NCBI GenBank assembly: GCA_947630505.1
Contig: CANRHV010000002.1
Location: 1 to 64,000 of the forward strand
Source: an uncultured Monoglobus sp.
GTDB lineage: Bacteria > Bacillota > Clostridia > Monoglobales > Monoglobaceae
Direction: 5' to 3'
DNA length: 64,000 nt
How positions within the stretch are numbered: the first letter of the stretch is position 1; every line of letters begins with the position of its first letter. The translations under genes were made by a program, and so were the position numbers. The notes under the pieces are model-generated. The model made no database searches, was not told the origin of the DNA, and saw only the letters and a list, made by a program, of their open reading frames with translations. This document shows positions 10,558 through 16,403 of the stretch, one piece after another.

Positions 10558-11133
10558 ATGCTTGGATTTGGAAACAGAAAACAGAACCCGGAGGAGCGGG
10601 AGTATCTCGAGGCCGCGCGCGGCGGATATCCCGTTCAGCCGCAGGGGTACCCCGCGCAGGCGCAGCCGGGAGCGGCGCCCATGCAGGGTATGATGCCCGG
10701 AATGATGCCCGGAGCCGCGGCAATGCAGTACGGCATGCCGATGCCCGCTCGTGGTATGCGCGGCGGAGCCGATCCGCGGCTTGAGGCGTATATCGCCAAA
10801 AGAACCGCGGAGATCGACGCGCAGGTCAGGGAGTTCTCGAGAAAGAATCCCGATTTTGACATCAGACGCGAGCTTCAAGACCCCAAGTTCTGCAACTATC
10901 TGTGGGGCAACGGGCTCAGCGTTGAGGACGCCTACTATCTTGCCCACCGCGGCGAGGAGCAGGCTGAAAACGACCGCGCAAAGCCCGAGGAGCCCGAGAA
11001 GAGAATCTCGGAGAACGGGACATCAAAGCCCGGCGGCAGCGGTATGGTGAAAAAGAACCCCGAGGACATGAGCGACGAGGAGGTTGACGACATCATAAGA
11101 CGCGTCCGCCGCGGCGAGAAGATCTCGTTTTAG
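10558..11133 (+). CDS. Phage head scaffold-like / pre-capsid protein
   Basis: Gly/Met/Pro-rich N-terminus, helical region NPDFDIRRELQDPKFCNYLWGNGLSVEDAYYLAH, basic C-terminus; immediately upstream of MCP; RBS GAAAGGAG. Confidence 0.6.
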   Translation: MLGFGNRKQNPEEREYLEAARGGYPVQPQGYPAQAQPGAAPMQGMMPGMMPGAAAMQYGMPMPARGMRGGADPRLEAYIAKRTAEIDAQVREFSRKNPDFDIRRELQDPKFCNYLWGNGLSVEDAYYLAHRGEEQAENDRAKPEEPEKRISENGTSKPGGSGMVKKNPEDMSDEEVDDIIRRVRRGEKISF

Positions 11134-11176
11134 TCCGAGACGCGAAAAAACAAAACTTTAAACGGAGGTATTTTTA

Positions 11177-13477: not shown

Positions 13478-15169
13478 ATGTATATGCCGATTGCGGCTCA
13501 AAAGAGCAAAAACAAAAAGGTCGATATCCTGAGCTTTTTCGGATACGACCAAAGAGAAAAGATCGACGACAGACAGCTCGCGGAAATGCTCAACATGTCC
13601 TCCGACGCGGCTCCCTGTCTGGCGCCCCGAAAACCCAGACGGCATATAGCCTCGCAGAAGGGCATAACCGCGCTGGCTCTTCCGGAGTATGACCCCGGCG
13701 GCCTTGACTCGTTCACGGGCGTCGCGGACGGGAGCTTTTACTACAAGGGCAGGCGCGTCGACAATATCGCGCTGAGCAAGGGTGAAAAGTCGATCGTGGA
13801 TTTCGGCGGGAACATCTGCATTTTTCCCGATAAGGTGTACTACCGTTATCTGCCCGACCCGGAGGACGGGCAGATCAAAAGCGAGCTCAGGCCGATGGGC
13901 AAAAGCATGACGGTGACGAACGCCTCGTTCTACTCCTACTACGACGAGATAAGCGGCAGATACAGAGCGAGGATCAGCCGAGACAACAGCGCGCGGTTTG
14001 ATTTGATATTCAAGCCCGGCGACAGCCTTGTGATATCCGGCTGCTCCAGGGCGCAAAACAACACTCTCGTGGTTGACAGCAAAAAAGACGTCGCGACGGA
14101 CGAAAGCATCGTCAGCGCGATCGTCAAAGAGGCGGGCGTCAGCGATCTGGATTTGCTGCTTTATAACAAAAAGGGCGGCTACGCTTTTTTTGAAAACGGG
14201 CACGAGAGCGCGGAGGTCAAGATAGAGATATACATTCCCGATATCGTCTGCGCCTGCGTGCACAACAATCGCCTGTTCGGAGCCTCGGAAAGCGGCGAGT
14301 ATATTTTTGCTTCAAAGCTGGGTGACTGCTTTAATTTCTCGTCATTCAGAGGCCTCGCCGACGACAGCTGGTTCGCCGAGATCGGCACGCCCGGAGCCTT
14401 TACCGGAATTGTCAGCTACAGGACCTCGGTTGTGGCGTTCAAGCGCGACTATATCCACCATGTGTACGGAGATTCGCCGGCCAATTTTTCGGTGCCGAAG
14501 CAGACGCTGAGCGGCGCTCTTGACGGAAAGAGCGTCGCCGAGGTCGGCGGAATTCTCTACTACATGGCGGCGGATGGGTTTTATGAGTATACCGGCGGCG
14601 AGCCCGAGAGGATAAGCCGCCCGATCAAAACCCTGTTCGCATCCTGCAAGAGCGGCACCGACGGCAGGCGTTACTACGCCTGCGCCGCGGACAAAAGCGG
14701 CAAAACGTCGCTGCTGGTGTATGATCCCGATATTGGCGTTTGGCACAGGGAGGACGACACAAAATTCGTCGATTTTGTCCGCGTGGGTGAGAGACTGTAC
14801 GGCGCGACCGAGAACGACATGTACCTGCTTGGGGACGAGGAAGCGGAGGAGATAATAAGATGGTGCGTGGTATCCAAAAAATTTACGCTTGACGATTTTG
14901 ATTTCAAGAGCGTGAACGCCGTCTATATCCGTCTGGAGTCCGAGTCCGACACCAAGGTCACAGTGAGTTTTTCGGCCGACGGCGAGGATTTCACCGTCCG
15001 CGGCGAGATCAAAGGAGAAAAGGGCTTTTCGGTACACCGTATTCCGATAAGGCTCAAAAAGTGCGACAGCTTCCGCATCATGCTGGAGGGCGAGGGAAAG
15101 GCGGTCGTCCACGATATAGAAATGATAACCTACACAGGAGGTAAAACGAATGTCGAAGACATCAGGTAG
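13478..15169 (+). CDS. Phage tail hub/stabilisation (beta-propeller-like) protein
   Basis: Repeating beta blades with LGDCFNFSSFRG, VAEVGGILYYMAADGFYEYTGGEPERISRPIK motifs. Confidence 0.6.
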   Translation: MYMPIAAQKSKNKKVDILSFFGYDQREKIDDRQLAEMLNMSSDAAPCLAPRKPRRHIASQKGITALALPEYDPGGLDSFTGVADGSFYYKGRRVDNIALSKGEKSIVDFGGNICIFPDKVYYRYLPDPEDGQIKSELRPMGKSMTVTNASFYSYYDEISGRYRARISRDNSARFDLIFKPGDSLVISGCSRAQNNTLVVDSKKDVATDESIVSAIVKEAGVSDLDLLLYNKKGGYAFFENGHESAEVKIEIYIPDIVCACVHNNRLFGASESGEYIFASKLGDCFNFSSFRGLADDSWFAEIGTPGAFTGIVSYRTSVVAFKRDYIHHVYGDSPANFSVPKQTLSGALDGKSVAEVGGILYYMAADGFYEYTGGEPERISRPIKTLFASCKSGTDGRRYYACAADKSGKTSLLVYDPDIGVWHREDDTKFVDFVRVGERLYGATENDMYLLGDEEAEEIIRWCVVSKKFTLDDFDFKSVNAVYIRLESESDTKVTVSFSADGEDFTVRGEIKGEKGFSVHRIPIRLKKCDSFRIMLEGEGKAVVHDIEMITYTGGKTNVEDIR

Positions 15170-16403
15170 AACAAAAACCAATCAGATAAAGGTCGAGGTC
15201 CCGCGGCGCCCCGACGGCATGGTCGGCGTCCGCGCCACTCTGCGCAACATGGGGATCGACAACAGTCTGATAGGCTACAACGAGGCGAACAAAACGGTCA
15301 CATTGGGCGGCAGAGAGCTGATGAGGCCGCAGTATATAAACGAGCAGGCGGGAATTTCTTTTTCAATGCCCGCGGATATACAGCGCAGCGTGGCTCAGTT
15401 TTATTCAAACACGAGCAATCCGGTCGTCAGAGTCTCGGACGCCTACAGCGGCTACGCGGGCAGATACGGCCTTTCAGCCGACGCGCTGGGCTATTCGAAC
15501 GGAGTCGTCACTATCGGCGGAATACCGCTTGACACGCTTTATATAGACGACGACGGCAAGGCGTGGGCGTTCCAAAACGACGTGCGGTCGGCGGTTGACG
15601 ATTACGTTAACTCGATAGGCGCCGTATCGCCGAACGAGCTGCTCGAGCGGTACAACGATATGTACCTGCCGCGGATCGAAAGTCTCAGCGATTCGATCAT
15701 GAACCGAAAGGAATTTTCATACGATCCCGAGACCGATCCGGTGTACGGGGCTTACCGCGACCAATATATGCAAAGCGCCGAACGCGCCGCCGAGGATACA
15801 ATGGCGGCGTATTCCGCCATGACCGGAGGATATTCAAACTCGGCGGCGGTGACCGCGGCGGGGCTGGCGCAGCAGTATTATATGAGCCGGCTTTCGGGAA
15901 TGATACCCGAGCTTGCGCAGCAGGCGTATGAGCGTTACTCGGACGGCCTGAGCCGCGACGCTGAGCTGCTTGACGATATGATCGGGCTTTACGACACGGT
16001 TTGGGGCAACGCGTACGCCGCGAACAGCAAGACGATAAGCAATGCCAATTCCTCGCTGTCGAGCAACGCTTCGAGAGACCAAAACTCTTTCGAGCGCAAC
16101 TGGGCGGAGGCGATGAATTCCCAGGACTACGACTGGACCGAGCTTTTGAATAAACAGAAATACAACTGGGCCGAGAAACAGAACAGTCAGGACTACAACT
16201 GGACAGACGTGCTGAACGGCCAGAAGTCGCAGTCCAACATGCTGGGACTTGAAAACGCGGCAAACGAGAATATTATGCAGGGGATATACATGGATTATTA
16301 CAACGATATGCTCCGCGCGCAGCTTGAGGGCGAACGCCTCGACAATCGCCTGACGCAGGAGCGCATAAACCAACTGATCCTTCAGAACATGCTCGGCATG
16401 TAA
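15150..16403 (+). CDS. Phage tail-associated protein with stalk-like N-terminal repeats and Asn/Gln/Trp-rich repeats
   Basis: VRATLRNMGIDNSLIGYNEANKTVTLGG (Cu-amine-oxidase-N/stalk-like) and NWAEAMNSQDYDWTELLNKQKYNWAEKQNSQDYNWT repeats; overlaps previous CDS by 20 nt. Confidence 0.55.
   Translation: MSKTSGRTKTNQIKVEVPRRPDGMVGVRATLRNMGIDNSLIGYNEANKTVTLGGRELMRPQYINEQAGISFSMPADIQRSVAQFYSNTSNPVVRVSDAYSGYAGRYGLSADALGYSNGVVTIGGIPLDTLYIDDDGKAWAFQNDVRSAVDDYVNSIGAVSPNELLERYNDMYLPRIESLSDSIMNRKEFSYDPETDPVYGAYRDQYMQSAERAAEDTMAAYSAMTGGYSNSAAVTAAGLAQQYYMSRLSGMIPELAQQAYERYSDGLSRDAELLDDMIGLYDTVWGNAYAANSKTISNANSSLSSNASRDQNSFERNWAEAMNSQDYDWTELLNKQKYNWAEKQNSQDYNWTDVLNGQKSQSNMLGLENAANENIMQGIYMDYYNDMLRAQLEGERLDNRLTQERINQLILQNMLGM

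Follow-up and report, generated by a model that had tools for sequence, protein, structure and literature searches.

The nearest known counterpart, by description, of the system reported here is FpGTA, the gene transfer agent (GTA) of Faecalibacterium prausnitzii, in which two operons lie about 125 kb apart in one chromosome and 40 nm particles contain 8.4-8.9 kb of host DNA (Borodovich et al. 2026, PMC12946183). The stretch under study (the window) comprises 64,000 nucleotides from an uncultured Monoglobus sp. (GenBank assembly GCA_947630505.1, contig CANRHV010000002.1, positions 1 to 64,000 of the forward strand), and six phage-type genes were identified in it at 10558-16403. These genes quite probably represent the head-and-tail locus of a GTA of podovirus origin that is dispersed over the chromosome and passed on vertically in Monoglobus and related genera; the particles of FpGTA are proven, whereas the Monoglobus system is known from its genes alone.

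Both systems have a podovirus-like gene set (terminase, portal, scaffold, capsid, tail, holin and endolysin) placed at separate loci in a gut Clostridia host, with no replication or integration cluster. In FpGTA the terminase, portal, scaffold and capsid genes share one operon, whereas in Monoglobus the terminase and portal genes lie apart from those of scaffold and capsid. In addition, extra lysis and fibre loci, one promoter joining the loci, and a repressor and an ArpU-like regulator in the packaging locus distinguish Monoglobus from FpGTA, and the host belongs to another order, Monoglobales. The RcGTA of Rhodobacter capsulatus and the Rhodogtaviriformidae also have phage-derived genes spread over several loci and inherited vertically, but with another ancestor and another capsid type. 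RcGTA is controlled by GafA with RNA polymerase omega (PMC9638019), whereas the regulators here are a CI/LexA-type repressor and a probable ArpU-like activator.

The six genes are intact, close-set open reading frames (ORFs) running in the same direction among housekeeping genes, as an earlier sequence-only reading of this stretch had described them, and the ORFs of the window bear this out. With the signals around them they were as follows (aa, amino acids; dN/dS, ratio of non-synonymous to synonymous change).

10474-10506, + strand: shared promoter, TGGCAC-N4-TGGCAC-N11-TATAAT, an activator-type direct repeat with a -10 box; perfect match, 0 mismatches.
10558-11133, + strand: scaffold-like protein, 191 aa from the ATG at 10558 (phrog_13908, 1e-10).
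11177-12409, + strand: major capsid protein of the N4-gp56 family (NCBIfam TIGR04387, 1.9e-81, above cut-off; phrog_1357, the PHROG major head protein, 1e-81).
12428-12676, + strand: small conserved head-associated protein, 82 aa, no role proposed (phrog_15239, 5e-19; dN/dS 0.01-0.14).
12690-13466, + strand: head-tail adaptor, 258 aa (phrog_12105, 4e-14; predicted fold).
13478-15169, + strand: P22 gp10-like beta-propeller tail hub (phrog_511, 6e-42; predicted fold).
15150-16403, + strand: tail/ejection-type protein with YNW/YDW-type repeats close to the C end, no role proposed (dN/dS 0.07-0.19).
16421-16442, + strand: terminator-like hairpin followed by a T run (pattern scan; 3 G-C pairs only).

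The frame of the scaffold-like gene is open from 10483, but the promoter occupies that stretch; many viral contigs have such a gene immediately 5' of that for the capsid. The capsid protein, already assigned to the N4-gp56 type by the sequence-only reading, has a variable insert at about residues 250-335 in the alignment, and the capsid of Pagevirus (Bacillus phage Page) and its gut relatives is about 41% identical to it over 73% of the length. Page is a podophage with a genome of 39.9 kb and the gene order TerS-TerL-hypothetical-portal-hypothetical-capsid; unlike the Monoglobus system, these phages are free and have the genes for replication, lysis and structure together in a single genome, and the shared promoter element was not found in the related contigs. 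The connector-like protein and the beta-propeller tail hub of the sequence-only reading also stood up, in structure models built from alignments of 24 and 35 sequences. The adaptor model (predicted local distance difference test, pLDDT, 86) was nearest to podophage head-tail adaptors, those of phage GP4 (8jov_G) and Pa223 (9nwi_A), with E 3e-3 to 5e-3; its 258 aa compare with mostly about 120-180 aa in free-phage relatives. For the hub model (pLDDT 88) the best Foldseek match was P22 gp10 (8eap_D, E 1e-15). Short-tailed phages of the P22/GP4 type have the portal family PF16510, the adaptor fold and the gp10-like hub in common with the Monoglobus system; the differences are that P22, an integrating phage, has a single genome and that the capsid here is of the N4-gp56 family. 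A PDB sequence search with the capsid or the large terminase (TerL) gave no match. No Pfam or PHROG match was obtained for the sixth gene, which had 59 relatives in the phage and genome contigs retrieved, many of them gut phage contigs.

No packaging gene was found in the window, where the six-gene locus stands alone, and the sequence-only reading had proposed a domesticated particle devoid of packaging genes, such as a capsid island, a tailocin-like particle or a cargo compartment. The lack of packaging genes did not survive a look at the whole genome (119 contigs, 98% complete), which contained one capsid gene of the N4-gp56 family and one Terminase_6N gene, the latter on contig C53, outside the window. 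This second, packaging locus was read in the window's own genome (L024) and in G008 (L057), a single-contig genome of the same genus, most of the compared genomes being metagenome-assembled. Both had the same conserved set, composed of a tail/fibre-like protein, a P22-type portal (PF16510, 1e-26; phrog_156, 2e-74), a divergent CI/LexA-like repressor with helix-turn-helix and peptidase S24, an ArpU-like regulator, a small gene and TerL (phrog_979, 7e-52). The Walker and nuclease motifs of TerL were intact throughout the family. Host genes, for example RuvX or SecD/SecF, flank the packaging locus, and these flanks were conserved in five close Monoglobus genomes.

In G008, TerL lies at 1,637,767 and the capsid gene at 1,908,802, with 271 kb between them. 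TerL (69-98% identity) was present in every checked genome of the family with the capsid locus except G021 (81% complete), which had a distant TerL homologue only. Mostly it was located on another contig than the capsid gene; in G027 the two share a contig, 19 kb apart. In the own genome, contig ends adjoin TerL and fall within the lysis cassette. In genus g3 (G013) the portal gene stands together with the capsid gene and TerL is elsewhere, so the split takes more than one form. The expectation that relatives would keep the six-gene block without terminase and portal was therefore not borne out, since nearly every checked genome with the capsid locus keeps the TerL and portal locus as well. 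A capsid or cargo compartment working without packaging machinery would suit a window with no packaging gene and a locus standing alone, but a single-copy TerL and portal, both conserved, are inherited together with the capsid locus behind the same promoter. This explanation was rejected once TerL and portal turned up elsewhere in the genome, and is now very improbable.

Comparison of the regions upstream of the head, packaging and lysis loci gave one element, the promoter listed above, which was present before all three loci in 9/9 Monoglobus genomes. Genome-wide, at up to 3 mismatches, 56 sites were counted in these nine genomes against 10 for the pattern read backwards. The contexts, tallied by eye, were the head locus (9), the packaging locus (9), the lysis locus (9), an XhlA-like gene near rpsL (8, three by site identity only), DnaD-like genes (5), Lin1244-type replication initiators (4), tail-fibre genes (3), a second endolysin (1) and a gene remnant beside sigG (1). 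Phage-type loci accounted for 49 of the 56, and the remaining 7 are about the number expected by chance. When a matrix was made from the packaging and lysis sites only, 10474-10506 was the top site of the window on both strands, with 32.7 bits against 13.8 for the runner-up. Recognisable forms of the element also occurred at both the head and the packaging loci of the related genera represented by G017, G024 and G027. The promoter is common to distant loci and so could not be recognised as shared from the window alone. It unites the loci in one predicted regulon.

Two other readings of the element were rejected. Contigs of related phages and prophages, 1.43 Mb in all, gave no copy of it, which spoke against a general phage promoter. 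Compared with the sigma-54 consensus, the TGGCAC repeats have a GG-GC spacing one base too short, and TATAAT follows at a constant 11 bases, so a sigma-54 promoter was also discarded. In G024 (L284:4496-6002) and G027 (L286) a copy of the promoter is followed by a zinc-ribbon protein of 332-333 aa that matched no family and then by a small membrane protein, possibly an effector/immunity pair.

The third locus contained an SPP1-type holin (PF04688, Holin_SPP1, 2.5e-27) and an Amidase_3 endolysin (PF01520, 2e-47; phrog_435, 7.5e-54), a cassette conserved in Monoglobus and standing alone among host genes. Other holin loci (PF05105) were not counted in the system, as they resembled tail clusters, prophage or separate cassettes. 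One such cluster of G008 (L217, 709-727 kb) is a separate baseplate/fibre-like cluster in which an endolysin and a PF05105 holin come last; it may belong to a second element, one with a contractile tail. Beside rpsL-rpsG-fusA a lone 97-aa XhlA-like gene with the shared promoter was observed in G000 (L271:2852-3145, contig C49), with orthologues in others.

dN/dS, estimated by the Nei-Gojobori method for Monoglobus pairs with unsaturated synonymous change, was about 0.03-0.19 for most genes. The capsid gene had about 0.02-0.07, the portal and TerL genes 0.03-0.08, the adaptor, hub and sixth genes 0.04-0.19 and the scaffold gene 0.07-0.30, with flanking host genes at 0.01-0.27. All genes are under purifying selection; dN/dS, put forward as a check by the sequence-only reading, was well below 1 and gave no neutral signal. 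The capsid frame was free of stops in all genomes, and TerL in all but one (G015, 1 TAA). The six genes were orthologous across the family, and the capsid and TerL distances followed those of the host gene SecD (Mantel r 0.95 for capsid and 0.92 for TerL; 0/2000 permutations). The eight close Monoglobus genomes and the group of G002, G006 and G010 were recovered in the capsid, TerL and SecD trees; G018, G024 and G027 grouped in the capsid and TerL trees, G018 having no firm place in that of SecD, and G016, G023 and G032 grouped in the TerL and SecD trees and did not resolve in the capsid tree. Because dN/dS is low, orthology is family-wide and the trees match SecD, the system is best read as domesticated and not degrading, and this half of the earlier proposal is supported.

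A dead prophage, split by rearrangement and with genes not yet decayed, would agree with replication-initiator homologues being degraded or missing in several species. It is hard to reconcile with dN/dS of about 0.03-0.19 across divergences reaching synonymous saturation, with the open capsid and TerL frames, or with the same promoter being retained at separate loci in several genera, and its probability is slight; a decaying prophage was rejected on dN/dS and the trees. An active prophage, that is, a contiguous genome with integrase and replication genes, does not fit loci that are separate and flanked by housekeeping genes, and the block was not found as part of a full prophage at this site among the genomes checked. 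The least probable explanation is a phage satellite or capsid-forming island spreading with a helper: the structural cassette is small and its genes are intact, but no integrase was recognised beside the head or the packaging locus, co-inheritance and tree agreement tie the genes to the host, and separate loci cannot excise together.

The receptor-binding fibres keep their N-terminal part, and the remainder, with the C-termini, is strongly different between species. Several modules of fibre with XhlA/holin/endolysin were located at separate sites in G008 (L213:2660-7783, L275 and L278), two of them with the promoter; on their sequences, these are taken as a stock of exchangeable receptor-binding and lysis modules. 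Some species have an intact DnaD-like gene; G000 and G004 have a fragment of it, and G002 and G010 lack it. Run-off replication through DnaD-like genes, on the analogy of Bartonella, was weakened as a candidate by these fragments and absences, and no clear iterons were found. In G003 (L289, contig C15, near 20636) the shared promoter and a broken DnaD-like gene with 3 stops lie beside sigG; G006 has an intact copy at the same place, so the phage gene once adjoined the sporulation sigma gene. A conserved core, exchangeable fibres and decaying replication genes should together be the pattern expected of a domesticated particle.

Some points weigh against a GTA. Phage replication-initiator homologues stand behind the shared promoter in several species, which is unusual for a GTA, and the own genome shows the fibre as a C-terminal piece only. 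A small terminase was not identified, a gene of 74-98 aa being a candidate by position only. The ArpU match was significant for the G008 copy only (phrog_36, 5e-8), and it is from its gene position that the ArpU-like protein is the most likely activator.

The main rival, which we consider unlikely but well ahead of the others, is a defective particle like PBSX of Bacillus subtilis, which would assemble, take up host DNA and leave the cell by lysis but would kill competitors instead of delivering DNA. PBSX has a contractile tail and one gene cluster, whereas the Monoglobus system is of podovirus type with scattered loci. Even so, PBSX is a Gram-positive precedent for a defective element packaging host DNA, and killing is left open for FpGTA by its authors (PMC12946183). 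The strong differences of the fibre C-termini suit killing as well as receptor choice, and the promoter before the zinc-ribbon and small membrane proteins could point to an effector with its immunity protein; this 332-aa gene, however, occurred only in the relatives G024 and G027 and not in Monoglobus. Portal, adaptor and gp10-like hub are moreover under strong purifying selection, as needed for delivery.

For the preferred reading as a GTA, the six features of the definition of Kogay et al. 2022 (PMC9662315) were compared. Phage-derived proteins are present (capsid, portal, TerL, adaptor and hub; protein similarity suffices here). The genes are endogenised, as GTAs often are, at several loci, at least three in fixed host contexts, the head and packaging loci of G008 being 271 kb apart. 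A further feature, that the element is not packaged as a whole, would follow for a head of the 40 kb class, like that of Page with its 39.9-kb genome, for which the loci lie too far from one another. Inheritance is mostly vertical, the capsid and TerL trees agreeing with the SecD clades. The definition also includes mostly random host DNA in the particles and delivery to other cells (PMC9662315). As these are experimental matters and three of the six features were found from sequence, the system is labelled GTA-like.

What the sequences show is the set of parts and how it is dispersed, the promoter in common, the purifying selection, the joint inheritance with the host and the intact terminase motifs; for particle assembly, random packaging, delivery, the inducing signal and the repeat-binding protein we infer the following. 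The CI/LexA-type repressor of the packaging locus would keep the system off until DNA damage or another stress lifts repression. The TGGCAC direct repeats would then be bound by an activator, for which the ArpU-like protein encoded in the same locus is the likeliest candidate, and the scattered loci for head and tail, portal and fibre, terminase, holin and endolysin, and receptor-binding fibres would be switched on together. The terminase would fill heads with pieces of host DNA by headful packaging, which is expected because the scattered loci would probably not share one head of podovirus size. Holin and endolysin would lyse the cell, and short-tailed particles would carry the DNA to relatives. 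The cell can thus probably build virus-like particles that take its own DNA to neighbours. A broader proposal has, in our estimate, an even chance of being right: an order of gut Clostridia would have its own, so far undescribed GTA lineage that is independent of FpGTA, with genes over at least four loci whose only link is a 33-bp promoter element controlled by an SOS-type repressor and an ArpU-type activator. Modules for fibres and lysis would be swapped between species while the capsid-portal-terminase core stays, so that an "exploded" virus would serve as a stress-induced DNA exchange system.

The host neighbourhood between ANTAR and LytTR two-component genes was as the sequence-only reading had it. 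MecA, glutamine synthetase and ANTAR genes lie on one flank of the head locus, LytTR regulator, sensor kinase, cyclophilin and glutamate synthase genes on the other, and PheS/PheT, CoaD and RsmD genes farther out. The terminator that had been called strong exists as a hairpin, but with its 3 G-C pairs is not especially so. Just past it, at 16463-16491, is a perfect sigma-70 promoter (TTGACA-17-TATAAT, extended -10), from which the two-component genes (LytTR regulator, sensor kinase) should be transcribed irrespective of the phage genes. Directly 5' of the shared promoter, at 10240-10475, runs like CCTAGTCCCTACGTT and palindromic repeat elements were seen, likewise upstream of the tail-fibre gene in L024. 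Such runs and repeats precede the promoter at the head and packaging loci of several genomes; they are possibly mobile intergenic repeats with a part in the dispersal of the loci. In a more distant Clostridia genome (G054, L033) the order was hub, sixth gene, TerL, scaffold, capsid, small gene and fibre, followed by host genes; this differs from free phages and is possibly another GTA-like form.

To our knowledge, very few GTAs are known outside the Alphaproteobacteria. The first podovirus-like one, FpGTA of Faecalibacterium, was reported in January 2026 (PMC12946183), and our literature search found no paper linking Monoglobus with GTAs. Scattered systems will be missed by prophage finders that look for a single cluster, and the promoter element offers a way to find and define one. 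Its regulation becomes testable, since the genome set includes an isolate, Ructibacterium gallinarum DSM 107454. Monoglobus, Roslinia and Ructibacterium provide a second case with another gene organisation, which suggests that gut Clostridia repeatedly use tamed podoviruses to exchange DNA.

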